The translations under genes were made by a program, and so were the position numbers. This document shows positions 39,701 through 64,000 of a DNA stretch of 64,000 nt, piece by piece (position 1 is the stretch's first letter; every line of letters starts with the position of its first letter). Origin of the DNA: Nitrobacteraceae bacterium AZCC 2146 (GTDB lineage: Bacteria; Pseudomonadota; Alphaproteobacteria; Rhizobiales; Xanthobacteraceae). Location: the NCBI GenBank assembly GCA_036924855.1, contig JBAGRP010000001.1:4402001-4466000 (forward strand), read 5' to 3'. The notes under the pieces are model-generated. The model saw only the letters and a list, made by a program, of their open reading frames with translations. It was not told where the DNA came from and searched no databases.

Positions 39701-42700
39701 GACCGCTTCAGGACCCGTGTGTACGGCGCCGGAAACTTTTGCGTGCCGTGGACCCGTCATTTGCGCGAGGCTCGTCCGCTGCTTCGCCGCGCCCTAGTAA
39801 CGGGACCGGAATCCGGCGACGTGACGTTTACGGCCTACACCTATAACAATCTCGTTGCGAACCTTCTCGGTTGCGGAGAGCCTCTCGAAGAGGCACAGCG
39901 CGAAGCGGAGAACGGGCTCAGATTCGCACAGAAGGCGCGCTTCGGCATGTCCGTTGACATCATGGCCACTCAGCTCGGTCTCGTTAAGACTCTCAGAGGT
40001 CTAACGCCGTCTTTCGGTTCATTCCACGATGAGGAATTCGACGAGTACAGCTTCGAGCAACATCTTGAGAGCCAACCGTACCATCTGCCTGGCTGTTGGT
40101 ATTGGATCCGAAAGCTGCAGGCTCGCTTGTATGCAGGCGACTACAGGAAGGCAGTCGCAGCAGCTGCGAAGGCACGACCGCTCCTTTGGACGACCACCTC
40201 TCTCTTCGAGGAGGCCGAGTATCATTTTTACGGAGCGCTCGCGAGGGCGATCGCCTCGGATTCTGCAACTCCCGATGAGCGCCGCGAGCTTCTCGAAGTT
40301 CTCGCCGAGCATCACGAACGGCTCGCATTTTGGGCCGAGAATTGTCTGGAAAACTTCGAACATCGCGCCGCGTTGGTGGGGGCGGAGATCGCACGCGTGG
40401 AGGGACGCGAGCTCGATGCTGAGCATCTCTACGAAAGGGCTATTCGCTCCGCCCGCGCACACGGCTTTGTCCACAACGAGGCGCTCGCTTACGAAGTGGC
40501 CGCGCGCTTTTACGCGGCGCGTGGGTTCACGCAGATCGCGGACCTGTATCTGCGGAACGCTCGCTACGGCTACCTCCGTTGGGGAGCCGATGGCAAGGTG
40601 CGACAACTTGACGAGATGCATCCACATCTCCGGGCGAATGAGCTGGTCCCCGGCCCGACGAACACGATGGGCGCGCCGATTGAACACCTCGACCTCGCAA
40701 CCGTGATCAAGGTGTCACAAGCCGTCTCGGGCGAGATCGTGCTGGAGAAATTGCTCGACACGATCATTCGCACCGCGATGGTACAGGCGGGTGCCGAGCG
40801 AGCTCTGATAATTCTTGCGCGCGACGTCGCACAGCGGATCGCCGCCGAAGCCACGACAAGCGGGGATTCGGTCGCCGTGCATTTGCGCGACGAGGCGGCG
40901 GGAGAAGCCGCGCTGCCGGAGTCGATCCTCCACTACGTCCTGCGCACTCGCGAGATCGTCATTCTCGATGATGCGTCGGCGCACTCGCCGTTTTCCGCCG
41001 ATCCGTACATTCGTCAACGTCGGGCCCGTTCAGTTCTCTGCGTGCCGCTACTCACTCAGGCCAAGCTGATCGGCGCGCTTTACCTGGAGAACAACCTCGC
41101 TCCTCGCGTTTTCGCGCCTGCGCGAATTTCGGTGTTGAAGCTGCTCGCTTCGCAGGCTGCGATCTCACTGGAAAATACTAGTTTGTACCGCGATCTGGCA
41201 GAGCGCGAAGCGAAGATCCGACACCTGGTTGACGCCAACATCATTGGGATTTTCATCTGGAATGTCGAAGGTCAGGTTATCGAGGCAAATGACGCGTTCC
41301 TGCACATGGTGGGATATGACCGTGAGGACCTCACCTCTGGGCGGGTGAATCAGACAGATCTGACACCGCCGGAATGGCACGCGCGCGACGCGCCGATGGT
41401 GGCGGAGCTGAAGACGATTGGAACCGTGCAGCCTTTTGAGAAGGAGTATTTCCGCAAGGACGGTAGTCGTGTGCCCGTGCTGATCGGCGTCACTGCGTTT
41501 CACGAGAAACGAGACCAAGGGGTTGGCTTCGTGCTCGATTTGACCGAACGCAAGAGGGCTGAGCGCGCGCTGCGGGACAGTGAGGAACTTAAGCGAAAAA
41601 TTATCGAGAGCAGCACGGACTGTATCGAGGTGCTGGACTTGGACGGAAACCTGCTATTCATGAGCAGTAGCGGTCAACACTTGCTCGAAATAGACGATAT
41701 TGGTCCTTACCTGAATTCCTGCTGGGTCGACTTTTGGCGGCCGCAAGACCGCTCCAGGGTAAGCGAAGCCATTGCTGCCGCACGGGCTGGAGGAATTGGC
41801 AAATTTCAGGCGTTCTGTCCGTCGGCAAAGGGCGTTCCGCGCTGGTGGGATGTAATCACCACGCCTATCTGTAATGCGGACGGCGAGCCCGAGCAACTGC
41901 TATTGGTGTCGCGTGACATTACGGAACGCAAGCGGGCTGAAGCGCAAGCACTCGAGGGCGAGCAGCGCTACCGTGACGTGCAGATGGAGCTGGCGCACGC
42001 GAATCGGGTCGCGACCATGGGACAACTCACGGCTTCGATCGCCCATGAAGTGAAGCAGCCTATCGCCTCGAGCGTCAACAACGCCGAGTCGGCCCTGAAC
42101 TGGTTGAATCGTCCAGCCCCGAATCTGGACGAAGCGCGTGAGGCGATCGCTTGCGTCGTCGACGACGGCCACCGGGCCGCCGAGGTGATCGACCGCATCC
42201 GTGACCTCGTAAGGAAAGCGCCGCCGTTGCAGGACCGCTTAGAGATCAACCGCGCGATCCGCCAGGTGATAGAGCTCACCCGTGGCGAAGCGGTGAAGAA
42301 CCGCGTTTCGGTGGACACGCAACTCGCGGAAGAGTTGCCGCCCATTGCAGGAGACCGGGTGCAACTGCAGCAAGTGATCCTGAACCTGATCATCAACGCC
42401 ATCCAGGCCATGAGCGCCACCACAGACGGGCCGCGTCGATTGGTGATCAGCACCGGGAAAGCGGAGTCCGGTGGCGTGCTCGTCGCGGTGCGGGATTCGG
42501 GTTTCGGGCTGGCGCCTGGGAATCTCGAGCACATCTTCGAGGCCTTCCACACAACCAAGCCGGGCGGTTTTGGACTGGGGCTCTCCATTTGCCGCTCGAT
42601 CATTGATGCGCATAGTGGGCGACTGTGGGCGAGCGCCAACGAGCCCCGCGGAGCCATCTTCCAATTCACGTTGCCCGCTTACTTGGACAGCGCATCGTGA
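36788..42700 (+). CDS. Trifunctional Ser/Thr kinase-like / AAA ATPase / PAS sensor histidine kinase
   Basis: 1970-aa paralog of the 2595-aa protein. It starts with TTG at 36788: the first residues (EPSFQFDAL) align with the ATG start of the paralog (NPSFRIPP), and no ATG occurs nearby in frame. Domains: kinase-like (HKDIKPAN 133-140, TGFG 153-156 replacing DFG, APE near 182); AAA_16 ATPase (GYSGIGKSS near 337, Walker B FLDDLQWVD); helical repeats to about 1300; GAF near 1317-1470; two PAS domains (about 1475-1595 and 1596-1715); HisKA (SIAHEVKQP near 1751) and HATPase (NLIINAIQAM, DSGFGLAP, GFGLGLSI near 1927). Compared with the paralog it lacks five PAS domains. No adjacent response regulator is seen. 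Confidence 0.93.
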   Translation: MEPSFQFDALGEDGFQVLLEDSERVLCRGWRLGRNGSRSPILVVLPAVERPSPLSLERLAHEYGLKDELDGVWALRPLELESDRARTKLVFEDPGGEPLVLLLGAPMEMGSFLRLAIGTAAAVSKMHQHGLVHKDIKPANILVNCADGRVRLTGFGLASRLPRERQAPEPPEIIAGTLAYMAPEQTGRMNRSIDSRSDLYALGVTFYEMLTGALPFNASDPIEWVHCHVARRPVAPAERLNDIPNATSAIIMKLLAKTAEERYQTAGGLESDLRRCLAEWKALDLIGDFPLGQQDTPNRLLIPEKLYGRARDIETLRAAFDRVIQSGTPELVLVSGYSGIGKSSVVNELHKVLVPARALFAAGKFDQYKRDIPYSTLVQAFRSLVRPLLGKSDIELNGWRDTLLEALGPNGRLMIDLVPELKLIIGEQPALPDLPPQDAQRRFQLVFRRLIGVFARPEHPLALFLDDLQWVDTATLDLMEHLFIQPDVRHLMLIGAYRDNEVDPAHPLMRKLVAIRNAGVLVREIKLGPLSHEDVGQLIADTVRCERARAAPLTQLAHEKTAANPFFLIQFLQVLAERGLLTFEHDQARWSWDLDRIHAKGYTDNVVDLMVTRLTRLPAETRTALQELACLGNVAAITMLSTVLGVSEEQIHTNLWEAVRQELVERREGSYRFIHDRVQESAYALIPEALQAETHLRIGRLLAAHTPPEKREEAIFEIVNQLNRATALITLRDEREQLAGFNLIAGKRAKASSAYASALSYLATAGLVLAEDRWERCYRLVFAIELDRAECEFLTGDLAAANERLLTLSQRAANIVDKSAATCLRIVLNLTLDRQEHAVEIGLEYLRGVGIAWPPHPTEAEAWQEYERMREQLGGRPIEALFDLPLILDPAWRGTMEVLMNLCTPAFFNDKNLWVLVLLRMASLSIEHGNSDASCFAYAYLVMIVGSRFGDYRTAYRFTQLSFDLMEKKGLDRFRTRVYGAGNFCVPWTRHLREARPLLRRALVTGPESGDVTFTAYTYNNLVANLLGCGEPLEEAQREAENGLRFAQKARFGMSVDIMATQLGLVKTLRGLTPSFGSFHDEEFDEYSFEQHLESQPYHLPGCWYWIRKLQARLYAGDYRKAVAAAAKARPLLWTTTSLFEEAEYHFYGALARAIASDSATPDERRELLEVLAEHHERLAFWAENCLENFEHRAALVGAEIARVEGRELDAEHLYERAIRSARAHGFVHNEALAYEVAARFYAARGFTQIADLYLRNARYGYLRWGADGKVRQLDEMHPHLRANELVPGPTNTMGAPIEHLDLATVIKVSQAVSGEIVLEKLLDTIIRTAMVQAGAERALIILARDVAQRIAAEATTSGDSVAVHLRDEAAGEAALPESILHYVLRTREIVILDDASAHSPFSADPYIRQRRARSVLCVPLLTQAKLIGALYLENNLAPRVFAPARISVLKLLASQAAISLENTSLYRDLAEREAKIRHLVDANIIGIFIWNVEGQVIEANDAFLHMVGYDREDLTSGRVNQTDLTPPEWHARDAPMVAELKTIGTVQPFEKEYFRKDGSRVPVLIGVTAFHEKRDQGVGFVLDLTERKRAERALRDSEELKRKIIESSTDCIEVLDLDGNLLFMSSSGQHLLEIDDIGPYLNSCWVDFWRPQDRSRVSEAIAAARAGGIGKFQAFCPSAKGVPRWWDVITTPICNADGEPEQLLLVSRDITERKRAEAQALEGEQRYRDVQMELAHANRVATMGQLTASIAHEVKQPIASSVNNAESALNWLNRPAPNLDEAREAIACVVDDGHRAAEVIDRIRDLVRKAPPLQDRLEINRAIRQVIELTRGEAVKNRVSVDTQLAEELPPIAGDRVQLQQVILNLIINAIQAMSATTDGPRRLVISTGKAESGGVLVAVRDSGFGLAPGNLEHIFEAFHTTKPGGFGLGLSICRSIIDAHSGRLWASANEPRGAIFQFTLPAYLDSAS

Positions 42701-52256: not shown

Positions 52257-54626
52257 TTATCGGACGGGGAGAGCGCTAACTGTTTGAGTCCGCCGTCGAT
52301 AGTTTCCGTCTGAATCTTGAAAGTAGTCCAGTTTCTTCATAAAACGGAAGATTGAGTTAGCACTCACTTTGACGCCTTCATTTTCCAGAAGACGCATGAT
52401 TTCTCTACGCGTTAGCTTCGGGTTCTCTTCGATGATCAAGTGGAGCCTATTGCGGCACCCGTCCAGTTTTGTGTTGCTAGTGATCTGGCCGCTCGCTCGA
52501 TACTCTTCAAGCCATTTGACAACTAACCTGAGCCTACAGCCCATGTGTCTGCTGACGTAGCCGACAGGAGATCCGGCTAAAACGGCCTCGACAACCTGCT
52601 TCTTCTCCTCGATCGAGTAAAATCTTCCTTCTCTGGTAAGCTTTTGCAGCAACGGAGGTTGAAATGGTATCACCCCATCAAATGCCTTGCGATTGAAAAT
52701 CAGAATTGGCCCATCGAATTGGAATTCCGGCTCCACGCCGTGCGAGCGCAGCCAACGATTTAATTCGTGATAGGCATTGAACACCGTCCTTTCGAGCATC
52801 TCTGGGCCGAAGATGTATTTCTTCGCTGCTGCCTCGATCTCCGCGCGCTTATAAATGTGGACGCCGCCTGCGATCCGTGGATTCAGCAGTCCAGCACCAG
52901 ACATCGGCCCGATCACGGCTAGGTTCGCTACGCCCAGTATCTGCGCAGCTTGCTCCCTACTCACCCACTTCTCCCGCCTCCCCTTCTCTGTGCCTCCGGC
53001 ATTTTCCACGGCTCTACAGAATTCGTTCAGATCGTCTATGGCGACGTTGCGCCGCCAGTCATTCGATCTGCTGCCCGAGCGCCGGACGACGATATCTCCG
53101 GTTAGAATGAGACTGATGATAGTCGCCCAAGAATCATGCGAACCAAAAGTCCGCACGGCGGAGAACATCTGGATACTCGTAGAATTCGCTTTTTTTGGTC
53201 GAGCTCGTTTTTTGATGGCAATTAGGACCGCGTTGATCGACGACCGGGTGAAATGAGCTTTGTTACCAAGCATGGCAACGGTAGCGCCAGTTGTACGCTC
53301 AATAATTTTCCGTTCTGCGAGTTCCGTCAACACCGCAGACGAGACTTTTAGCATGCCCCGTGCAGTCCTTTCGCTGACTGCCCCCTTGTAACACGCGATG
53401 AACGGCGCCACCTCTGTACGTCTCATCTGAATTGGTGCTGTTGCCCCAAATACGCGCTTTGTCGCCACGTGCCCGCTGTCGGCCAAGCGCTTAAGCACAA
53501 CGTCTCTTAGGCCGAACTCCCCATTGAGTTCGTTAATATTCAGCCATTCATCGCTTACATGGCGTCCTATTTGTGTAGTGCGCCTTCTGACCAGGCTGAC
53601 GTTTTGCGTCCGCGCGAGATCACGCTCGATAGCTGTCTTTACGTGTGAGCGAACTGCCGGAGCAATACGTCGGTCACCGGCGATCGCGGCGAGCGGCCCC
53701 AGCTCCTTGAAGACGCCGTGCGACGCCGGTCGCTGACTCATGAAAACCCTCATGGCGTCAGCGACGTTTCCAAAGTCACTCTCGCCACCGATGAGCGCGC
53801 GCACGGCCAAGGCGAGTCGGTCCGGGGTCAGTTCAGCGAACTCGTCGACCGTCTTGGGCCGCCCGACCCTGTGGGTTCGGCGAGCGTTGGCCGGCGACAG
53901 GACGCTCGCGATTGAGATAACCGCATCAAATAAATCAGAGCTCGTCGCGGAGCTCAGCTCGTCAGGAACAAGCCGCATCGCCGCCGCTCGTTTTTCAAGG
54001 CTAGGATCTACCAAGCCTACGACGAAGTTTACAGCTTCCTCGTCATCGACTTCGATAATCGGCTGAGGAAAGTCGCGGAGATCTGTGGAGAGCCCCTGCT
54101 CCTTAGCACATTTGTCGCATCTGAAAGGTCCATACATTGTCGACCATCCCAGCCTGCTTTTACAGATCGGGCATCGATCGAGCAGGCGTTCCCTCGTATC
54201 GGGATCGAAGGAAAACGGTCTCAGATCCCAAATCGCCTTGTGATGCGGTGAGATCGACAACGAGCGCGGCGAGACACGGCGGATCTCCGCTTCGAAATAT
54301 TGCGCGCGAATCTTCGTGCCGAAGAACTCGATGGTCAACTCTTCTGCATGCTCGAACGTTCCCCAGGGATAGAGCCTCGCGCGAAACTGCTCGGGGTCGA
54401 CTTTAAACAGCCTCGCGAGACCGTCCACATCCTCGGTTGTCAGATTATACGGCCGCGGCCGTTGTTTGGCATGAACCTTTCCTATCAGGTTGAACGCCAA
54501 ATAGAGGCTGTTGCAGACAGTTCTGCTCAGAGCACGGCTCACGTACCCTAACAGGCTCTCGTCTGGAATAGGACGGGGCATCTCGGCAACGAACGGTCGA
54601 ATGTTTCCTAATTTAACTTCGGGCAA
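52257..54626 (-). CDS. tniQ: TniQ-family target-site selector with C-terminal HTH extension
   Basis: 789-aa protein, longer than usual TniQ/TnsD. The N-terminus has the TniQ pattern (PIPDESLLGYVSRAL, 19-33) and a zinc ribbon C152-x2-C155 ... C170-x2-C173 (RCPICKSRLG, RCDKCAKE). The middle is mostly helical with a possible HTH (SREQAAQILGVANLAVIG). The last 110 residues look like paired helix-turn-helix domains of IS630-type transposases (SIEEKKQVVEAVLAGSPVG, RLRLVVKWLEEYRASGQ, then LTRREIMRLLENEGVKVSAN). TniQ/TnsD proteins bind the target and recruit TnsC; the added HTHs suggest sequence-specific recognition. It starts 6 bp after the tnsC stop. Confidence 0.85.
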   Translation of the reverse strand: MPEVKLGNIRPFVAEMPRPIPDESLLGYVSRALSRTVCNSLYLAFNLIGKVHAKQRPRPYNLTTEDVDGLARLFKVDPEQFRARLYPWGTFEHAEELTIEFFGTKIRAQYFEAEIRRVSPRSLSISPHHKAIWDLRPFSFDPDTRERLLDRCPICKSRLGWSTMYGPFRCDKCAKEQGLSTDLRDFPQPIIEVDDEEAVNFVVGLVDPSLEKRAAAMRLVPDELSSATSSDLFDAVISIASVLSPANARRTHRVGRPKTVDEFAELTPDRLALAVRALIGGESDFGNVADAMRVFMSQRPASHGVFKELGPLAAIAGDRRIAPAVRSHVKTAIERDLARTQNVSLVRRRTTQIGRHVSDEWLNINELNGEFGLRDVVLKRLADSGHVATKRVFGATAPIQMRRTEVAPFIACYKGAVSERTARGMLKVSSAVLTELAERKIIERTTGATVAMLGNKAHFTRSSINAVLIAIKKRARPKKANSTSIQMFSAVRTFGSHDSWATIISLILTGDIVVRRSGSRSNDWRRNVAIDDLNEFCRAVENAGGTEKGRREKWVSREQAAQILGVANLAVIGPMSGAGLLNPRIAGGVHIYKRAEIEAAAKKYIFGPEMLERTVFNAYHELNRWLRSHGVEPEFQFDGPILIFNRKAFDGVIPFQPPLLQKLTREGRFYSIEEKKQVVEAVLAGSPVGYVSRHMGCRLRLVVKWLEEYRASGQITSNTKLDGCRNRLHLIIEENPKLTRREIMRLLENEGVKVSANSIFRFMKKLDYFQDSDGNYRRRTQTVSALPVR

Positions 54627-54632
54627 AGTCGT

Positions 54633-55700
54633 TTACACCTTAAGTTTCTTCGACATCTCGCGGATGGCAGCGTTTGTCGTCGGCTTCGTGTTCGATTTGA
54701 AGGGGTCATAGATGCCCGCTATCGGATTGCCGTCGTCGTCCTTCTGATCCGCCTTCCAGGTCCAGAATCCATGTTTGATGTCGTCCCATCCTATGGAGCG
54801 GCGGCCATCGCGTTGTGAGATGCGTAGTGCCAGCATCAAGACCCTGCTAACGACGCCGACGACGCCATCCGCGAGGTCATAGATCTTGGCTCGGCTATCG
54901 ATATCGTCGATTAGCCCGATCCGTTTGTCGATGATACCAAGGTCGGCCATCTCTCGCTCGACGCGCCCGACAAACTTGAAGAAGTATTCGTAATCTTGCT
55001 CATCGCTCAGGCTCGCTGGCTCTAACGAGATTTCGTCAAATTTTCGGCTATTAAGCTCGGCATCAACTTGGAAGAGCAAATGCGCATCCTTGGTACCCAT
55101 CACTACGATCGAGAAGACGCCGTCGTTGACGAGGCTTTTTATGGCGACAGCCATAGTGGCCGCGTTCGCGCGCTTGTCGCGCCCAAGCATATTATGGACC
55201 TCATCCAAGACGACAATATGCGTGCCGGCTCCGCGGGCTACCTTCCGGATCGCGTCCATTGCTGCTTTGTGCGAGAAGTTGGCGACCCGCCTTTGCATAA
55301 GTTCCGCCTGAGGATCTCCAAAGGCTTCCAAGATCTGGACCTGCAGTTGCTTGGCTGTCCGCGTGCTTGCCCGACACTTGACCATTAGCACCGGTCGGTT
55401 TCCCCGGCGTCTGCGTTTCAGTTTTTCGGCGATACTCTCCATGGAGGTTGTCTTCGTCGAACCGGTCGGGCCGATGATTGGGAGGGCCCACAGCTCCGTG
55501 TAGGTGATGCTCTGCCGGAGCTCCTCCGCTTCCTTCTCCCGAAGGAGATCGTCCGCAACCAAGACTTCCGTGTCGGCGAGCATCTCAAGTATGCGTTCCT
55601 CGATCAGGTCGAGGCGACGGTTCTTGACCACCAAAGTCTTAAGCTTCGCGCGCAGCTCCGCGTTGCTCTCGCGCGCGTTGTTCTTCATTGCTGTCGTCAT
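54633..55700 (-). CDS. tnsC: TnsC/TniB-like AAA+ transposition regulator
   Basis: 355-aa ATPase. Walker A is GPTGSTKT at 77-84 (an unusual Ser-Thr where TniB normally has Gly-Ser-Gly) and Walker B HIVVLDEVHNM near 161-171; sensor 1 region VVMGTKDAHLLF follows. TnsC-type proteins form filaments on DNA and link TniQ to the transposase. ATG 55700 is chosen; the frame extends to 55730, which would overlap tnsB. The C-terminus has a basic tail (KPTTNAAIREMSKKLKV). Confidence 0.85.
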   Translation of the reverse strand: MTTAMKNNARESNAELRAKLKTLVVKNRRLDLIEERILEMLADTEVLVADDLLREKEAEELRQSITYTELWALPIIGPTGSTKTTSMESIAEKLKRRRRGNRPVLMVKCRASTRTAKQLQVQILEAFGDPQAELMQRRVANFSHKAAMDAIRKVARGAGTHIVVLDEVHNMLGRDKRANAATMAVAIKSLVNDGVFSIVVMGTKDAHLLFQVDAELNSRKFDEISLEPASLSDEQDYEYFFKFVGRVEREMADLGIIDKRIGLIDDIDSRAKIYDLADGVVGVVSRVLMLALRISQRDGRRSIGWDDIKHGFWTWKADQKDDDGNPIAGIYDPFKSNTKPTTNAAIREMSKKLKV

Positions 55701-55711
55701 CGTTGTCCCAC

Positions 55712-58078
55712 TCAGTCCTTGTCGAGCCACTTATTTATTTCTTCTGTTGACATCTTTTCTCCCTCATCGTTCGCGGCTCCGTCGGTGATCTTCGGGCCAC
55801 TGTCATTCGCGTCTTGTCTCATCCGTCGCTTCACCGCCTCGGTAAGCTGTTCGGCCCGCTCCTCCGCGGCAATCTCAGCCTTTCCTCGCAGTGTCCGCTT
55901 TGTCTTTGCCTTGGCTTTTTGGCTTTTGCCGCGTGCCTTGGGTGCGAAACGATCGTCCTCTCCTCTCTCGAAGGCCGCGACTTGCGCCGGAACGAGCGTG
56001 GCCGCACCCATTCCGCTCGTCGACGGATCGGCGGTGGCGAAAAGGATATCGGACGCCTTCATCTCGCCCGGCGGCTGCCTGGAGGGATGATCAAATGTTC
56101 CTTGAGATTGCGCCAACCCGCGGATCGCTTCCTTGGTCTCGCGCGGCGGCATCAGGCGGCCGATCCGCTCCCATATGGCTGTAATCTTGCGCCGAGCGAT
56201 CCATCGCTGTTCGTCGGTCTTAAGCGGGAGATTCTTATCCTTCGCGAAGCGAAGCACCTTTTCTGCATGCCAGAAGGAGATCGGGATCGGCAGTTCGCGG
56301 CGCGCGTCCCGCTGTGCGCCATCGATTTGCGGCCCGAACACGAAGCGGCGGTCGCGGTTTTTGAGCGTTTCAAACCTCGGGGGTTTGGCTGCGTCGTTCC
56401 ATACCTGAATGCAGGAGGCGTCGATCGGGTTATATTTGATCTTCACCCATGAGCGCCCGCTGCCAACTGGCGATTTGGGCTGATCTCGCTTTGGCGCCTT
56501 CGCGACCAGCATGTCCATCAGCCGCGACGTTACCGGCTCGTCGTGGAAAGTCATGTTCTTGAAGCGGATCCCGCGGCGGGTGAGCCTCACTTTGGCCGTT
56601 TGCCCGAGCAGATGGTCGAGGGAACGGACATCGGAGACGACGTGCCGCTTCTTCAATTTGCGTTTCCATGCTTGGGCGGGCGTCTCACCACCGAGACTGG
56701 AGTGCTCGTCGTTGTGGTACGCGATGATGGTGTGGTGCATCAGCTCGTCTAGGTCGCCCAGACTAAGAACCGCGTCCTTCCTGGGATCTATATCGACCAG
56801 GCGCATCTCGGTCGGGCCGAACGGAACCGCGCCCGGCAGCTTGTGGAAGAGACGGTCATTTAAAGTCTTGAAAAATCGCTCGCCGATTGCCTTGTATTGA
56901 GGCCTTCTGACGGGGGACCAAATAGGCTCCATGCCGACATCACGCAGCGAATCCTGGAACGACGGGCTCTTAAATTCCCACGCAGAGTCGACGAGCAGCG
57001 TCTTCGGCAATCCCCAGCCGTCCCAGCCGTCGTTAAAATCGACCTCGGGAAAGACGTGTCGCACATAGTCCTTGGAGCGGACCACGCGCTTCAAGGTCGT
57101 AAGCACCGAATAGAGGCTCGGTGGCTCAAAAGATATAAGATAGCCAAGCACCATGCGCGTCGCGACGTCGATGGCGACGGTCAATGTCGGACGTCCCAAC
57201 GGGAGGCATTGCTCGGTATCAAACACAACCCATGTATCGATGACCGTGTGATCCATGATCACCAGTTCCAGCGGCGAGGTCGCTGTCGGGCTGTCCTTGG
57301 TGCCCACGAATTTGAGAGTGGCCTCATGCTGGCCGTATTTCCGCGACCAGTTGTCGTAGTTGACAGTTGCGTTGATGCGACGCCTCAACGTCTCCGGCCG
57401 TCGGGGAAAATTGGATTCGCCGAGTGGACGTTCGCCGACGGCCCCCCTGCGATCGTTTTCGTTTTTGATCAGTTCGCGGAAACGGGCGTAAGCGTCAGTG
57501 AAGGTCCGCGCTCGAAGGTCCCAATAAAAATCGATGGTTTCTTTGATCGCCTCTTCGACGGACCGAATGAAGCGCTGCCGCGACGATTTTCCTCGACGCG
57601 AGCGAAAGACGCGCAGCGGCCTGTTGCCCGGCTCGCCGCAATTGATGATTGCATCGTAAAGTCGTGCTGGCTGAACGTCGTGGGTGAGGACCTTTTTGTA
57701 GGCCGCCTCTCTATGCATTGCGATGAATTTCGCGAGCCCTTTCTTTCCAAGACTTGCGCCGCGTGTTTCATCCCAGGTGCGAACATAGAACTGGAGCGTG
57801 CGGGCGCGAACGGCGTCCTGCGATAACTCTTCGCCCGGACCGAAGTCACCCATATCGTTGCATGACTTCGGCTTCCCATCAGAACGACGAAAAATGTCGA
57901 CTCTCCTCGCTTTGCCCTGGTCGAGCATTTCGATGAGTTCGGCTTCGCTGAGAGGCAGCCGCTTGGCCGTCTTGTCCTTGAGGAACCAGAGAGTGTCGTC
58001 ATCCCATTCCTCGAGAAAGCGGAATCGTCCCTCGGGAAGTTCGAAGATGTCGCCGACATTGATATCGAGTGTCGTCAT
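55712..58078 (-). CDS. tnsB: TnsB/TniA-like DDE transposase
   Basis: 788-aa Mu-type transposase. The rve catalytic core has Asp in LELVIMDHTVID near 274, Asp in LLVDSAWEF near 363 and Glu in KAIGERFFKTLND near 399, a D-D-35-E spacing. Upstream are DNA-binding regions (RRPETLRRRINATVNYDNWS), and downstream a beta-barrel and a Lys/Ala-rich tail (KARGKSQKAKAKTKRTLRGK) followed by acidic residues, the part that in TnsB contacts TnsC. It performs 3'-end cleavage and strand transfer. Confidence 0.9.
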   Translation of the reverse strand: MTTLDINVGDIFELPEGRFRFLEEWDDDTLWFLKDKTAKRLPLSEAELIEMLDQGKARRVDIFRRSDGKPKSCNDMGDFGPGEELSQDAVRARTLQFYVRTWDETRGASLGKKGLAKFIAMHREAAYKKVLTHDVQPARLYDAIINCGEPGNRPLRVFRSRRGKSSRQRFIRSVEEAIKETIDFYWDLRARTFTDAYARFRELIKNENDRRGAVGERPLGESNFPRRPETLRRRINATVNYDNWSRKYGQHEATLKFVGTKDSPTATSPLELVIMDHTVIDTWVVFDTEQCLPLGRPTLTVAIDVATRMVLGYLISFEPPSLYSVLTTLKRVVRSKDYVRHVFPEVDFNDGWDGWGLPKTLLVDSAWEFKSPSFQDSLRDVGMEPIWSPVRRPQYKAIGERFFKTLNDRLFHKLPGAVPFGPTEMRLVDIDPRKDAVLSLGDLDELMHHTIIAYHNDEHSSLGGETPAQAWKRKLKKRHVVSDVRSLDHLLGQTAKVRLTRRGIRFKNMTFHDEPVTSRLMDMLVAKAPKRDQPKSPVGSGRSWVKIKYNPIDASCIQVWNDAAKPPRFETLKNRDRRFVFGPQIDGAQRDARRELPIPISFWHAEKVLRFAKDKNLPLKTDEQRWIARRKITAIWERIGRLMPPRETKEAIRGLAQSQGTFDHPSRQPPGEMKASDILFATADPSTSGMGAATLVPAQVAAFERGEDDRFAPKARGKSQKAKAKTKRTLRGKAEIAAEERAEQLTEAVKRRMRQDANDSGPKITDGAANDEGEKMSTEEINKWLDKD

Positions 58079-58136: not shown

Positions 58137-58868
58137 TCATGGTTTCGTCACTGCGCTATCGCGCGTGATCTTCTTCCTGATGTCGATTGCGGCCCTACGC
58201 GTACAGACTAGCGCGTGAAGCACTGCCTGTGCTCGTTCGAGAGGGACGTCGGCAGCAGATGCGATGATCTCGATTGCCCTTCCGTAGGGAAGCGCTTCGT
58301 TGATCTGGAAAGCCTCCTCGATCGCGAGACGCTCACGCGTTCCGATCAGTGAGAACTTGTCCTCGCAGATCATCTTCGCGTTCGAGTAGATCGGATTGAC
58401 GTCGATCTCCTCCTCCGCGATTATGATTCGGAATTTCCATCCCAATGCCGCGTAGACGCTTTCGGCCATCGCGATCTTGAAGGCATAGTCGGGATCTGCT
58501 TCGATCTCCTTCTCCGTCCTCTTGACCTCGATGATCTCGATCGTGCCGTCCTTAAGGTCCCGCCTGAGATCGGGGAAGTACAACAGCGGCTTATCGCTGT
58601 GGTCGACCCTGATCTCGAGCCTGTGAGGTTGCGCGAGGTAACGCACGAACTGGCCATCCGCTTCGGATATCCTCATCAGATGACGCTCGCCGAAACCTTC
58701 CCATGTCATGGCGCGTCGTGACTTGCGCGAAACGAAGCGACCTACCGGTTTCGAATGAGCGTACTCAACGAATGTCCGTATCGGTTGCCAGTTCGGCGCT
58801 TCCACAATCATCGCCTTCGATGTCGCGAACATATTCGCGCGAGTATGAAGATTTGCACCATTACTCAT
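58137..58868 (-). CDS. tnsA: TnsA-like endonuclease
   Basis: 243-aa protein. ATG 58868 is fixed by a strong AAGGAGGT site 7 bp upstream. The restriction-endonuclease-like fold is recognised by E61 (TWEGFGERH), D100 (LLYFPDLRRD) and E114-V-K116 (EIIEVKRTEKE), the E-D-EVK triad of TnsA, which cuts the 5' strands so that transposition is cut-and-paste. The C-terminal part (IDVNPIYSNAKMICEDKFSL onwards) fits the TnsA C-domain that binds TnsC. It precedes tnsB by 58 bp. Confidence 0.88.
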   Translation of the reverse strand: MSNGANLHTRANMFATSKAMIVEAPNWQPIRTFVEYAHSKPVGRFVSRKSRRAMTWEGFGERHLMRISEADGQFVRYLAQPHRLEIRVDHSDKPLLYFPDLRRDLKDGTIEIIEVKRTEKEIEADPDYAFKIAMAESVYAALGWKFRIIIAEEEIDVNPIYSNAKMICEDKFSLIGTRERLAIEEAFQINEALPYGRAIEIIASAADVPLERAQAVLHALVCTRRAAIDIRKKITRDSAVTKP

Positions 58869-59278
58869 GGTTGAGACCTCCTTAAGCTCGCGTGGGCTTG
58901 CGGAACGACATCGCCCCGATCGGACCGCGACCGTGGCCGTGTGATGCGAGTACGGCGGCGCCATAAGCGTTGCCGCAACCGCAATCGTTCGGACACGCGT
59001 CGGATTCGGCGGTCCAACTCCTCAACTTCGATGTCGACGGCAATCGAGGCCAACCGATAGCCACCGCCGATCGAAGCGATGACGTCTGCGGCTGAGATCG
59101 TCGGCCGTTCACCGTCGGGCCCACGTGCGATACACGCGCTTCCGATAGTGAATCCGGTGTCCACGTCGGTGCAGATCGCCCGGTAGGGCGAACTCGACTC
59201 TCGCGGCTCGGCGACGGTGATCTCGCAAGTCCGGTAGTCGGATCGCGGTCCCCGCAATGTTAAGAAAGAGATGGCCAT
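58865..59278 (-). CDS. Hypothetical protein upstream of tnsA
   Basis: 137-aa frame with GGAAGGAG 8 bp before ATG 59278. The first 100 residues are plausible coding sequence (SDYRTCEITVAEPRESSSPY, YRAICTDVDTGFTIGSACIA). After about residue 105 the frame becomes Arg-rich, while the neighbouring frame reads ACPNDCGCGNAYGAAVLASH and ends at 58882; a frameshift near 59020 is possible. Unknown function; adjacent to tnsA (3-4 bp overlap if read as listed). Confidence 0.5.
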   Translation of the reverse strand: MAISFLTLRGPRSDYRTCEITVAEPRESSSPYRAICTDVDTGFTIGSACIARGPDGERPTISAADVIASIGGGYRLASIAVDIEVEELDRRIRRVSERLRLRQRLWRRRTRITRPRSRSDRGDVVPQAHASLRRSQP

Positions 59279-59992: not shown

Positions 59993-60259
59993 TTAAAGTT
60001 CGACGAAGTCCGCCTTCATGATCTCCTCCGAAGCCTTCGCCAATAACGTCCAGACGCTCTGCCTGCGATCGTGCGCCAGCACAGTGCAAGCGGCCTTGCA
60101 GGGCGGATTGCCGGTCAGCGGGTTTGCGTCTTCCATGACGTCGACTGAGTAGTCAGATACGTGCGCTAAGTTAGAGACGTTGACGACCCGCATCGAGCCG
60201 ATGGTGCGGCGGAGCGGTTCGTATCCGCCGGGGACGAGGTCGACTGTGACGACGAGCAT
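59993..60259 (-). CDS. Small hypothetical protein
   Basis: 88-aa protein with a strong AGGAGGG site before ATG 60259. It reads VVTVDLVPGGYEPLRRTIGS, then VSNLAHVSDYSVDVMEDANP and ends WTLLAKASEEIMKADFVEL. It looks like a compact alpha/beta domain. I know similar short proteins from rhizobial accessory regions but not their function. It sits between the DUF6634-like gene and the structured gap, same strand. Confidence 0.6.
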   Translation of the reverse strand: MLVVTVDLVPGGYEPLRRTIGSMRVVNVSNLAHVSDYSVDVMEDANPLTGNPPCKAACTVLAHDRRQSVWTLLAKASEEIMKADFVEL

Positions 60260-60410: not shown

Positions 60411-60746
60411 TTACCGCGCGCCAAGCCGATAGACCCGATTCCAGGAGCGTGCCCACTGCCGGTTACGGTCGAGCCAGATCAGTTGTGAAGTATGGATCCT
60501 GGTGCCGTCGGGGTGCTGTGGATGGCCGGCAACGCTTCCCACCAGAACCAGGACCATGGCCTGAGGATCCTCCTTGCGGGCAACGTGCACGAAGCTTGCG
60601 CGCCAGCTCTCAAGCATCGGCGCGCGCTCCAGTTCGAGCAGAGAGGGCTCCTCTCCCTTCATATAGGACTCGAAGTCGCGCTCTAATTGGACCATCTCAT
60701 TCTCTTCTTCAATCGACATGTTCGAAATCCCGGTCATGCTACGCAA
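60411..60746 (-). CDS. DUF6634-like small protein, paralog b
   Basis: 111-aa protein paralogous to the gene at 63110-63439: VGSVAGHPQHPDGTRIHTSQ here against VGSVRGHPILGNRARVHTSQ there, then RQWARSWNRVYRLGA against HGWVRTWSRYYRLGA. Start could be 60746, 60737 or 60719 (all ATG). It begins about 12 bp after the AAA+ ATPase stop. The conserved GHP, HTSQ and W-R-YRLG residues suggest a small beta-rich domain; function is not known. Confidence 0.7.
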   Translation of the reverse strand: MRSMTGISNMSIEEENEMVQLERDFESYMKGEEPSLLELERAPMLESWRASFVHVARKEDPQAMVLVLVGSVAGHPQHPDGTRIHTSQLIWLDRNRQWARSWNRVYRLGAR

Positions 60747-60758
60747 CTTGAGAGGTAT

Positions 60759-62156
60759 CTAGTGTCTCGCTGCGGTAGCATTTCGCGCCGCAACGGTGCC
60801 CGCCACAATCCTTTGCAGCTTACGAATACTGAATCCGGCCTTCTCCCAGGCTCGCCCGATTACCTCGATCTCATCGGTCGCAAGTGGCCACGTGAATGCT
60901 TCCTCCCCGTTCTCGACCGCGAGCTCCCGGAGCACGTTAGCCGCCAACGCCGGCAGGTCTGCGAGCCGCGGCGTCTCCACCCTGACGATGCGATAGCGGT
61001 CCTTCAGCGGCGCCGGCAATTCTTCAATGCTGTTCGCAGTCGCGATGTGTGAAATCCAGGATAGGTCCAACTCAGCATCGAGTGAGACGTCGCGGTAGGC
61101 GCGCGCCGTTTCACGCTCCAGAAATGGCAGGAGGGCACTCCACAAACGGCCATTGCGCGACGATGTGCCTGCCTTGTCGATCTCGTCGATAAAAACGACG
61201 GGGTTCGATATTCGTGTCTGGTTGACAGCTCGCGCGGGCGCGGACGGAACCGTATTACCCCAAGCCTTCGGGCTGCCACCGAACATGTTGTCGCTCGCAC
61301 CTCCGCCGTCATAGCGATACACACCTATGCCGAGCAGGTCGCGGAAAAGTCTGCGCACCAACCGTGTCTTGCCGACGCCTGCGGGACCCGTCAGCAAAAT
61401 CGGCGACAGCCGCACCGGCTCACCTTCATGCAGGTCGCGCAGCAAGAGGTCGATCGCGCCAATGGCATGAGGGTATTCGGCCGTCAGTTTTGCGCGCACG
61501 GCGCCGATGTCTCTGGCAACCCGCAGCGGCAGCTTGGCGTCCACCAGGTCCTTGAATTCGGACTGGTAGTCGTTGAGTTTTGTTGCTTTGCCCTTCGGCA
61601 TGACGACGATGCCCGGTTCCTTCGGCTTGCCTCCCTGACCATCTTCGTTCTGTACGCGCGCCGGCGGTAGACCCTCCGAAGGGTCGTCCTGGTCCAACAT
61701 CGCGAGCCGGACAATCTGGAACATACTGCTATCATTGTCTGTAAAATCACCCCGCGCGGCCTGCCACCAGACGTCGAGACGCTGAAGAATGTCGTACTTA
61801 GTAACCCTTGCCATCGGCCATTCCCAAAAGTGTTCGATGGCCAAGGCAAGCTGCGGCAGCACTATCTCGAAGGTCTGTGGTTCGGTCGGATCGGCCGCCA
61901 GCATCAGTGCACTGAGTGCTTCCTTGCCGTGGCCTGCGGCGAACAACAGGTCGGCGAGAGTTTTGCATGCCTCTTTGCAACGCTTCTTGTCCACAGACCA
62001 GAAATCCGTAGCGACTTCGTCCCGTGGCACGTCGCCGATTTCTTCTATGCGCGACCAGAAAAGCCCCGCGGCGTGCGGCCAGCTGCGTTGCCACAGGAGC
62101 GCTACCGGCAGAGGTACCGATGATAGATTTTTCGATAAGCGGTCGCCGCCAGCCAC
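60759..62156 (-). CDS. Lon-like AAA+ ATPase without protease domain
   Basis: 465-aa protein with GTG start 62156 after a GAGGGAGG site. Residues 1-210 are an uncharacterised helical N-terminal region (SWPHAAGLFWSRIEEIGDVP, CKTLADLLFAAGHGKEAL). The AAA+ module has Walker A GPAGVGKT 257-264, Walker B VVFIDEID 320-327, sensor 1 HIATANS and an Arg-rich KDRYRIVRVE near the sensor 2 side; the FIDEIDKAG pattern resembles Lon/HslU. No Ser-Lys protease domain follows. It follows the phosphoesterase gene by 11 bp. It could remodel or unfold a partner protein or complex. Confidence 0.8.
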   Translation of the reverse strand: MAGGDRLSKNLSSVPLPVALLWQRSWPHAAGLFWSRIEEIGDVPRDEVATDFWSVDKKRCKEACKTLADLLFAAGHGKEALSALMLAADPTEPQTFEIVLPQLALAIEHFWEWPMARVTKYDILQRLDVWWQAARGDFTDNDSSMFQIVRLAMLDQDDPSEGLPPARVQNEDGQGGKPKEPGIVVMPKGKATKLNDYQSEFKDLVDAKLPLRVARDIGAVRAKLTAEYPHAIGAIDLLLRDLHEGEPVRLSPILLTGPAGVGKTRLVRRLFRDLLGIGVYRYDGGGASDNMFGGSPKAWGNTVPSAPARAVNQTRISNPVVFIDEIDKAGTSSRNGRLWSALLPFLERETARAYRDVSLDAELDLSWISHIATANSIEELPAPLKDRYRIVRVETPRLADLPALAANVLRELAVENGEEAFTWPLATDEIEVIGRAWEKAGFSIRKLQRIVAGTVAARNATAARH

Positions 62157-62167
62157 CCCAGCCTCCC

Positions 62168-62947
62168 TCAGATCTCGATCACGTAGCTCGGATCGAAGCG
62201 CATGTTTTCCCAGCCGCGCTGCTTAGGCGGCCAAGGGCCATAGCCCTTTGAATTGCTGACGATGCGCGTGCGCCCGACTGTGAAGTCGCGACTTTCGTGT
62301 GTGTGTCCGTAGATCCAGAGGTCCACGTTCTCCAGGAGGTCAGAGCAGTCGCTGGTATAGGCCGCCGAAAGTATGTCGGTCTCCGTGCCCGCCTTCACAG
62401 CTTCTCGTACGCATCCGTGGTGCGTGACGACGACGGTCCGGTCCGCACGGGCCTCGTGCGTAGCGCGCGCGATGAAGTCGCGGGAGTCAAAGTGACGGGC
62501 GAGCGTGTCCGTTGGACGTAGACGCTCTACATATCGGCGCTTACGGATCCGATGGTAATCGTTCATTCCCTCGGCCGCGTAACTCATGGCGAGATCGCGG
62601 TTCCCGAAGAGTTCGAAATTAGTCCAGAGGGTTGCGCCGACGAATAGCACATTTTCGATCATGACCGCGTTGTTCTGAAGGATGTGAAGAGACGTTCCCG
62701 CGGCCGCCAAGCGCGCCTTTTCGACGGTACGATCGATATCGCAGCCCCAAAATTCATGATTGCCTGCAACGTAGATGATTGGCTCGTCGGTCACGCGGCT
62801 CAACAACCACTCTACACCGCGCTCCATACGGGTGATCAGGTCGCCGGCGACGACAAGGACATCGAAATCCGGACGAGCCGCGCCCGCAGGCAGGTCCCAA
62901 CCACGGGTCTGCTCCATGTGGAGGTCACTGATGATCCACAGTCTCAT
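62168..62947 (-). CDS. Calcineurin-like metallophosphoesterase
   Basis: 259-aa enzyme with a complete metallophosphoesterase motif set: D8-x-H10 (ISDLH), D36 (VAGDL), N63-H64-E (AGNHEFWG), His in VVVTHHGC and GHTH near 213 with the surrounding IYGHTHES. These bind two metal ions and hydrolyse phosphomono- or diesters. No signal peptide or nuclease extra domain (no MRE11-type capping) is seen. It is directly followed by the AAA+ gene, suggesting a functional pair. Confidence 0.88.
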   Translation of the reverse strand: MRLWIISDLHMEQTRGWDLPAGAARPDFDVLVVAGDLITRMERGVEWLLSRVTDEPIIYVAGNHEFWGCDIDRTVEKARLAAAGTSLHILQNNAVMIENVLFVGATLWTNFELFGNRDLAMSYAAEGMNDYHRIRKRRYVERLRPTDTLARHFDSRDFIARATHEARADRTVVVTHHGCVREAVKAGTETDILSAAYTSDCSDLLENVDLWIYGHTHESRDFTVGRTRIVSNSKGYGPWPPKQRGWENMRFDPSYVIEI

Positions 62948-63109
62948 GAACGTTCCTTGATTTCGAGCGAGCCAACGTCGACGTCAACGAGACCGTCGGC
63001 GTTCCGATCGGACCATCGGCAGGCCATGACGCGGATGATCGATTGCAGCGGAGGCGTTCTTTCGTCCGCTTGACGGCGCGAGCACCTGCCACTCACTAAC
63101 CGGAGGTTA

Positions 63110-63439
63110 CTAGCTCTTCGAATCGGGCGCCGGCCCTTCGGGTGCTCCGAGCCGATAGTAGCGGGACCACGTCCGCACCCAACCGTGCTGCGGATCGACG
63201 AGGATGACTTGAGACGTGTGCACCCGAGCACGATTACCAAGGATCGGGTGTCCGCGGACTGAACCAACAATGCAGCGCGCCGATACGAGACCGCATGACC
63301 ACTGATCGATTGTTGGAGCGGCGCTCAAATCCATAGAGCGCGGTATTTCGCCCATCTGAAGATCGTGGAAATCAGAAAGCAAGCTTGTCAGATTGTCCTC
63401 GACAGAATTCAGGCTACCGCATTGAGTGATTATAGACAT
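63110..63439 (-). CDS. DUF6634-like small protein, paralog a
   Basis: 109-aa protein with a GGAG-type site before ATG 63439. It shares the C-terminal core GHP-x-(9)-R-x-HTSQ-x-(9)-W-RxWSRYYRLGAP with the gene at 60411-60746. The N-terminal 40 residues differ. Lying 160 bp upstream of the phosphoesterase, it frames the enzyme pair with the other paralog. Family name is from memory; function unknown. Confidence 0.7.
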   Translation of the reverse strand: MSIITQCGSLNSVEDNLTSLLSDFHDLQMGEIPRSMDLSAAPTIDQWSCGLVSARCIVGSVRGHPILGNRARVHTSQVILVDPQHGWVRTWSRYYRLGAPEGPAPDSKS

Positions 63440-63530: not shown

Positions 63531-63932
63531 TCAGAATTTCGCGACTAGCCACAGGTCGCTGAGAAGCCGACAAGATGGGTCGTATTTCGATCGACGCCGT
63601 AGTGCGGAGGAGATCAGAATCGCTGATGTTGCATCACCCTCAAGTGCGCAGGCCAGGACAGCCGACAGCGCTAGGTCGACCTCAGCAACCGTGATCGGTC
63701 GCGCTTTCATTTGTTCGACCGCGACGCGAATTGCGACTGCCGCATCGCCAAGAATTGCGCGAGACCAATCTGGTTCTTCGTGAATTTCGGTCCCAAGCAA
63801 AACTTCGCGGATCCCGCCAATGCCCCTGCATAGAAGAGCACTGGGCCTGCGTGTACGCCACCAAATGAGCGGAGAGAACGGTGCAATATCCGGTGCCAAT
63901 GAAGATGGCGCGCGATTCCCCGATGCGTGCAT
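63531..63932 (-). CDS. Hypothetical protein at right edge
   Basis: 133-aa frame. ATG 63932 is favoured by AGGAGTG 5 bp upstream; an in-frame ATG at 63959 has none. Content: APFSPLIWWRTRRPSALLCR, a hydrophilic middle DWSRAILGDAAVAIRVAVEQ, and a small helical C-terminus VDLALSAVLACALEGDATSA. It is not recognised. It is first in the same-strand row that leads to the transposition genes; more genes may lie beyond the window. Confidence 0.5.
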   Translation of the reverse strand: MHASGNRAPSSLAPDIAPFSPLIWWRTRRPSALLCRGIGGIREVLLGTEIHEEPDWSRAILGDAAVAIRVAVEQMKARPITVAEVDLALSAVLACALEGDATSAILISSALRRRSKYDPSCRLLSDLWLVAKF

Positions 63933-64000
63933 GAGACACTCCTGTAATGTCGCAATCATGGATTTACTGATGCGCCGCTGGGCGGCGAAGGACTCGATTT

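Follow-up and report, generated by a model that had tools for sequence, protein, structure and literature searches.

What could a calcineurin-like metallophosphoesterase gene be doing beside the gene of a Lon-like AAA+ ATPase without a protease domain, with small genes of the DUF6634 family on either side of the pair? The question is raised by positions 60411 to 63439 of a stretch of DNA from Nitrobacteraceae bacterium AZCC 2146 (assembly GCA_036924855.1, contig JBAGRP010000001.1), analysed over its whole length of 64,000 nucleotides and called the window here. A first-pass annotation had seen in these four genes a possible defence or nucleic-acid-processing module. The comparisons reported below favour a recurrent, XRE-controlled and mobile-element-borne conflict system, acting against phages or mobile elements and probably defensive, a reading to which we give a probability of roughly 0.5. 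The module may be an undescribed defence system, since it recurs on mobile DNA and often lies near anti-virus defence genes. If it does serve defence, Alphaproteobacteria would gain one more multigene system, spread across their plasmids, their Tn7-like elements and islands that bear integrases.

Recurrence of the module

One line of evidence is the gene neighbourhood itself, which the first-pass annotation had proposed to survey. Among 397 genomes of the same order, the ATPase (E ≤ 1e-25) gave 33 matches in 26 genomes, DUF6634 gave 55 matches in 38, and the metallophosphoesterase (MPE; E ≤ 1e-15) gave 76 matches in 44. Within 5 kb of the 33 ATPase matches, the window's own included, an MPE gene was found in 18 cases, a DUF6634 gene in 14, and either or both in 26; uniform placement in genomes averaging 4.6 Mb would predict about 0.01 for each family pair. 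Viewed from the partners, a Lon-like ATPase lay within the same distance of 16 of the 55 DUF6634 matches and an MPE of 15, while 34 of the 76 MPE matches had a Lon-like ATPase or DUF6634 nearby. Co-occurrence is thus conserved and far above chance. That unrelated genes merely adjoin here is a highly improbable explanation; the separability of the parts is all that speaks for it, and it was rejected, being contradicted by these counts and by a conserved locus in a second genome (below).

The composition of the module was then examined in 79 stretches of DNA, mostly of 20 kb (80 less one duplicate), which were scanned with purpose-built profiles and are neither random nor fully independent. DUF6634 occurred in 50 of them, and 43 of these 50 held a Lon-like or FtsH-like ATPase at 100 bits or more; in 37 of the 50, the ATPase lay on the same strand within 300 bp of the DUF6634 gene. 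Further partners were a PDC-S14/GIY-YIG-like protein (14 of 79 stretches), DUF2130 (6 of 79) and relatives of orf63531, the first gene of the window's module (17 of 79, window counted). Sequence comparison thus ties DUF6634 tightly to either type of AAA+ protein, often to MPE, and sometimes to the orf63531 family, the PDC-S14/GIY-YIG-like protein or DUF2130.

Among named plasmids, similar gene sets were found in Bradyrhizobium, Microvirga, Methylorubrum, Paracoccus and Bosea and, outside the class, in Polaromonas. Plasmids of Cereibacter and Acidiphilium carried the ATPase without its module partners. In the labels used here, G numbers denote genomes (G000 being the window's own) and L numbers the DNA stretches compared. 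The window's genome has two more Lon-like copies, L053 (at 3.64 Mb of C1) and L054 (at 7.21 Mb), which are 92% identical to each other; each is accompanied by an MPE, a member of the orf63531 family and a PDC-S14-like gene, with no DUF6634 detected, and that family was detected nowhere in the genome outside the window.

A viral collection was scanned as well. Single-protein scans returned no DUF6634, no MPE and five distant loci for the ATPase, and an alignment scan with two motif scans returned two DUF6634 loci (L137 and L165); on these results the reading as a phage gene module was dropped. In a further viral DUF6634 hit, L166, the long phage open reading frames (ORFs) run on the other strand, and this hit is probably due to chance. 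At L165 (IMG/VR UViG_2643221564_000004), genes for an XRE regulator, DUF6634, a Lon-like ATPase, an FtsH-like AAA protein and a separate M41 peptidase stand in a row. A permissive-pattern scan of the genome contigs yielded at least 10 loci, which were kept out of the counts.

Two kinds of motor in one slot

By its sequence, the ATPase belongs to the Lon clade. Its match to Lon (TIGR00763, 78 bits) is confined to the AAA+ part, at residues 253-394, and a profile of 25 aligned ATPases matches solved Lon AAA+ modules, lid included, at E ~1e-40. The protein ends after the lid, where the Lon protease would start (the profile match covers 322-523 of 532 positions), which bears out its description as a protease-less Lon-like AAA+ protein. 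Invariant in all 25 sequences, the window's among them, are G260, G262 and K263 (Walker A), D324 and E325 (Walker B), N375 (sensor 1), R387 (the arginine finger) and R445 (sensor 2).

Most DUF6634 loci without the Lon-like ATPase carry instead a gene combining AAA and Peptidase_M41, as FtsH does. The M41 match exceeded the Pfam cut-off in four of five such proteins tested, and HExxH was present in 22 of 25 FtsH-like ORFs. Of the other three, one is a fragment and two are the AAA halves of genes that are split. No N-terminal domain common to the Lon-like and FtsH-like ATPases was found by hhalign. Both motor types occur together at L165 and L041.

A case of exchange came from a DNA search with the window's right flank in 21 genomes, which found mainly chemoreceptor-like repeats, plus one locus, L172, in a genome of the same genus, G781. 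Five genes of the window's locus have counterparts there, at 60% to 94% identity (Table 1), and an FtsH-like AAA-M41 gene occupies the slot of the window's Lon-like ATPase and DUF6634a. The motor type thus differs between loci that are otherwise alike, and its exchange is seen directly in the sequences compared. This replaceability was absent from the first-pass annotation, as were the XRE regulator and the adjoining Tn7-like genes.

The direction of the exchange was approached through a quick MPE tree of 33 sequences with a single ATPase type nearby (21 Lon-like, 12 FtsH-like). The best tree needs at least 7 changes of ATPase type, and well-supported branches make 3 of these unavoidable. The labels are somewhat clustered, as shuffles average 10 changes and 13-14 of 500 were as low as 7; three of the sequences sit on long branches. 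The window's MPE groups, with full support, with three others that are all FtsH-type, and for this reason the Lon-like cassette is the likely newcomer. On this view the window's locus is derived, a Lon-like ATPase and DUF6634a having probably taken the place of an FtsH-like protease.

DUF6634 and the phosphoesterase

The two small proteins were correctly described as DUF6634-like paralogs: both pass the Pfam gathering cut-off for PF20339 (27 bits), and they are 37% identical. As for the motifs proposed to be conserved, GHP and the Thr-Ser of HTSQ are kept in most of the family, and the Gln is not. In an alignment of 11 DUF6634 sequences, conservation of Thr-Ser reaches 90% or more; it is invariant in an alignment of 4, and missing in some relatives. 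The structure model, built from four sequences and of low confidence, shows a helix at the N-terminus followed by a small beta sheet. The earlier suggestion that the small protein is the sensor or substrate of the ATPase gains from the linkage, with the addition that it partners two different AAA+ families. DUF6634, for which the literature search found no paper naming the family, thereby gains a context, through its ties to a phosphoesterase and to AAA+ machines of two different kinds. At L112:9017-10704 (genome G250), five overlapping DUF6634 ORFs precede an MPE gene, and no ATPase was found there.

The MPE retains its metal-binding motifs (DxH, GD, GNH, H and GHxH), and D8, H10, D36, N63, H64, H176, H215 and H217 are invariant in 14 aligned MPEs, the window's included. 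The first-pass annotation had allowed that this might be a housekeeping phosphoesterase; its sparse distribution, in just 44 of the 397 genomes, rules that out.

The MPE might work on a protein modification, for example at the DUF6634 Thr-Ser, with the MPE and the AAA+ motor jointly processing DUF6634. The nearest solved MPE by both sequence and fold is PptH, described as removing phosphopantetheine from carrier proteins, and the conservation of Thr-Ser would fit such a role. However, PptH, the only PDB entry to which the MPE profile was matched by sequence, is covered only over profile positions 3-69. In Foldseek, it comes first at a template modelling score of ~0.5, narrowly ahead of MPPED2, Dbr1, nucleotidases and Mre11, and the model itself (two sequences) is of moderate confidence, with a predicted local distance difference test score (pLDDT) of 66.8. 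With Thr-Ser also missing from some relatives, we regard a protein-modification role as quite unlikely.

Regulator and mobile elements

Just past the right end of the window, a divergent XRE-type regulator adjoins the module. Between it and orf63531 lies the operator-like inverted repeat AAATCC-N7-GGATTT, which is kept in the one same-genus relative compared, and one σ70-like promoter match reads into the module, against 0.4 expected. Leaving aside the window and L172, relatives of this regulator, or of that at L165, were seen close to 13 modules or parts of modules; 10 of the 13 are divergent, and those of L119, L148 and L050 are not. The position of the regulator is thus established by comparison, and control of the module by it appears probable.

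To the left, and codirectional with the module, a set of tns-like genes runs from 58964 down to 52257. Across the 397 genomes, TniQ (PF06527) had 65 matches in 46, and 8 of the 65 had a module gene no more than 12 kb away, where uniform placement would predict about 0.1 (with a crude count of about 120 loci). With one exception among the 8, G243, the module precedes the tns genes and reads in their direction, and it does so also at L172, L153 and the Bosea plasmid L183; for G111 and G326, the arrangement was judged from coordinates alone. Were four arrangements equally likely, at least 10 of 11 in this one would have p ~1e-5. In L172, the genes beyond orf59993 are TnsB-like, TniB/TnsC and TniQ, the latter two by profile match, and a gene in the tnsA position; the last gave no PF08722 match, so TnsA is placed there by position and size alone. 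The transposition genes are far more diverged between the window and G781 than the module is, TnsB being 32% identical over 212 residues. No convincing pair of terminal repeats of a Tn7-like element was found at the window's locus, and a short repeat near 63954-64080 was rejected as a Tn7 end, since it resembles the regulator's operator.

Because of this tns neighbourhood, a role as a transposition accessory is kept as a rival. The AAA+ unfoldase would remodel the TnsB transpososome of the Tn7-like element as ClpX does that of MuA, and the MPE would trim or repair DNA ends. MuA has been described as a ClpX substrate, TnsB and MuA are kin, and the window's TnsB has a weak Mu-transpos_C match; the excess of TniQ near modules and the recurrent upstream placement would also fit. 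Yet for 57 of the 65 TniQ matches, of which some lie on short contigs, no module gene stands within 12 kb; TniQ is absent from most module loci (roughly 120 by crude binning), many modules belong to plasmids and some lie beside DUF6538-type integrases, and the G781 module accompanies a very different TnsB. We consider a transposition role unlikely.

Other mobile settings are also seen. Some modules adjoin DUF6538-type tyrosine integrases (DUF6538 was present in 3 of 105 near genes sampled), and L053 adjoins one of this type. The module might be passenger cargo, or mark the preferred insertion side of Tn7-like or integrase elements, and serve maintenance, for example through addiction or plasmid stability, in place of defence. 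ATPase relatives (E ≤ 1e-10) on 92 plasmid records, and MbcA/ParS/Xre antitoxin genes adjoining some relatives, are in keeping with this. Against it, the flanking genes match several defence models, and none of the genes of the window's module matched a known toxin family in the profile scans. On balance, cargo with a maintenance role is an unlikely account.

Defence-gene setting

Genes within 3 kb gave PADLOC matches, among others, to GajA, GajB, pAgo, SIR2, QatA, a type II methyltransferase, PD-Lambda-3 and DRT, and genes at least 5 kb away gave matches to IetS, PglX, LmuA, ZorB/C, DrmMI, PtuB and a DndA/SspA-type desulfurase. The flank matches thus span Gabija, pAgo, SIR2, Qat, DRT, restriction-modification, Zorya, PglX and Lamassu models. 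Such hits were not scarcer among the farther genes than among the near ones; what is enriched is thus the wider setting and not the immediate edge of the module. In a control of 47 genes from four stretches off modules, the matches, among the 25 families listed, were mainly mad2 and mad3 (two-component-like) and a desaturase. In G327, a type II cyclic-oligonucleotide-based anti-phage signalling system (CBASS; L173:6958-11418, with phospholipase, cyclase, E1-E2 and JAB models) lies ~6 kb beyond a tniQ that belongs to a Tn7-like element adjoining an MPE/FtsH-like module. Taken together, the surroundings are suggestive of a defence-island setting. The likeness of the MPE and of the GIY-like partners to PADLOC candidate systems (below) would also agree with a defence role.

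Several points weigh against a conflict system of this composition. The parts are separable: an ATPase that reaches 100 bits is lacking from seven of the 50 DUF6634 stretches and from 16 of the 79 overall (12 of the 16 with an MPE), although the 16 include stretches cut off at a contig edge and others in which the ATPase hit is weak or partial. The FtsH-type loci entered the set through DUF6634 or MPE, and their partner counts are therefore partly a product of selection. The window is without a PDC-S14-like gene, extra MPE ORFs in L041 and L067 are without metal-binding motifs, and the DUF6634 model (pLDDT 61) has no PDB match at E ≤ 0.001. The flank survey was a sample, of 105 of 245 near genes (from 65 stretches) and 105 of 181 farther ones, read from the 25 top families. 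Its PADLOC matches are not gene counts, since several models may stand for one gene, and the DndA/SspA desulfurase, RtcR and mad models may match housekeeping relatives. Finally, the control was small and not random, and 4 CBASS genes were scanned alongside it.

A possible mechanism

A conflict system of this kind could work as follows. The XRE-controlled operon would be switched on, and DUF6634 would dock to the AAA+ motor as a dedicated adaptor or substrate. The step common to both kinds of motor would be ATP-driven unfolding or remodelling, and not proteolysis, because an FtsH-like protease and a protease-less Lon-type ATPase fill the same slot. Such remodelling would free or activate the MPE, the candidate effector. 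An extension, which is rather unlikely, is that DUF6634 characterises a previously undescribed class of systems for defence or for conflict among mobile elements, serving as a socket for interchangeable unfolding motors, with immunity arising through the ATP-driven unfolding of a DUF6634-guarded MPE rather than through proteolysis as such; it takes unfolding as the trigger since the motors interchange while the regulator, DUF6634 and MPE stay. The pair formed by G000 and G781 is a natural motor swap in one locus, and could tell unfolding from proteolysis.

Locus layout

The four ORFs first described are real, all on the minus strand and in the order given (Table 1), and transcription would run from orf63531 through DUF6634b, MPE and the ATPase to DUF6634a. 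The close spacing reported at the ATPase agrees with the ORF coordinates (11 bp from MPE, 12 bp to DUF6634a); DUF6634b and MPE are 162 bp apart. The module is wider than the four genes at its upstream boundary, where orf63531 and the XRE regulator belong to it. The framing by two DUF6634 genes is true of the window but is a merely local layout, since the position and number of these genes vary among loci. No Pfam match was found for orf63531, and for orf59993 no relative beyond that in G781 was found in the stretches searched.

Table 1. Genes of the module and its surroundings in window coordinates, with identity to the counterpart in G781.
Feature	Position	Strand	Identity in G781	Remarks
XRE-type regulator	64200-64469 (L002:6200-6469)		85%	divergent; past the window's right end
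orf63531 (family F4)	63531..63959	-	94%	small protein; first module gene
DUF6634b	63110..63439	-	69%	109 aa; PF20339 52.7 bits
Calcineurin-like metallophosphoesterase (MPE)	62168..62947	-	60%	259 aa; Metallophos PF00149 53 bits
Lon-type AAA+ ATPase without protease domain	60759..62156	-		465 aa; AAA PF00004 56 bits
DUF6634a	60411..60746	-		111 aa; PF20339 35 bits; part of Lon-like cassette
orf59993	59993..60259	-	72%	small ORF separating tnsA from the module; likewise placed in G781
TnsA-like endonuclease	58137..58964	-		NF033179 45 bits (cut-off 110); PF08722 26.4 bits (cut-off 26.5)
TnsB-like transposase	55712..58078	-	32%	identity over 212 residues; rve and Mu-transpos_C below cut-off; PADLOC TnsB 7e-20
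TnsC/TniB-like ATPase	54633..55730	-		PF05621 58 bits (cut-off 22.4)
TniQ-like protein	52257..54626	-		PF06527 29 bits (cut-off 27); PADLOC TniQ 6e-4

Some further features lie around these genes. Just outside the module, L002:7351-9132 (65351-67132 in window coordinates) holds a gene that is methionyl-tRNA-synthetase-like by sequence, adjoined by an IS110-like transposase fragment (L002:6569-7108). Near the XRE gene of G781, the gene at L172:8878-9267 shows weak similarity to an antitoxin annotated in L183 as MbcA/ParS/Xre-type, and a 75-bp stretch like it lies at about 75587-75661 of the window's region, 11 kb from the module. Further left in the window are two very long ORFs, 12100-19887 (2595 aa) and 36788-42700 (1970 aa).

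Comparison with known systems

The first-pass annotation could name no described system, and nothing in the model libraries or literature searched has changed that. In PADLOC-DB 2.0.0, the module genes yielded no complete described system, only a match of the MPE to PDC-S10 and weak generic AAA hits; there was none for DUF6634 or orf63531, and the Lon-like ATPase was matched only at the generic AAA level. Literature searches found no description of a DUF6634/AAA+/MPE module. Two PADLOC candidates do resemble its parts: PDC-S10, which the window's MPE matches at 4e-12 over its first 111 residues, and PDC-S14, which two GIY-like partners from other loci match over nearly their full length at ~1e-24.

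Defence systems are described as frequent cargo of Tn7-like elements (Benler et al. 2021, PMC8649781). At the window's locus, element ends were not found, and the module may be cargo of the Tn7-like element or may lie just outside it. A word search of the survey's main text gave no phosphoesterase, calcineurin, FtsH or peptidase, and the main text of a second Tn7 paper (PMC10293859), searched in the same way, gave no description of the module.

Likenesses are also found among the proteases. With the Lon protease (TIGR00763), the window's ATPase has in common the AAA+ module and its lid. Lon carries a C-terminal Ser-Lys protease domain, which the window's ATPase is without, and in place of the Lon N-terminal domain, for which no Pfam match was found, it has ~250 residues of a different N-terminal region. 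The FtsH-like gene of other loci shares AAA plus M41 with FtsH. It differs in that a strongly hydrophobic N-terminal segment (Kyte-Doolittle mean of at least 1.6 over 19 residues within the first 200) is present in just 3 of the 25 module ORFs and, unlike FtsH, it sits within a DUF6634/MPE module.

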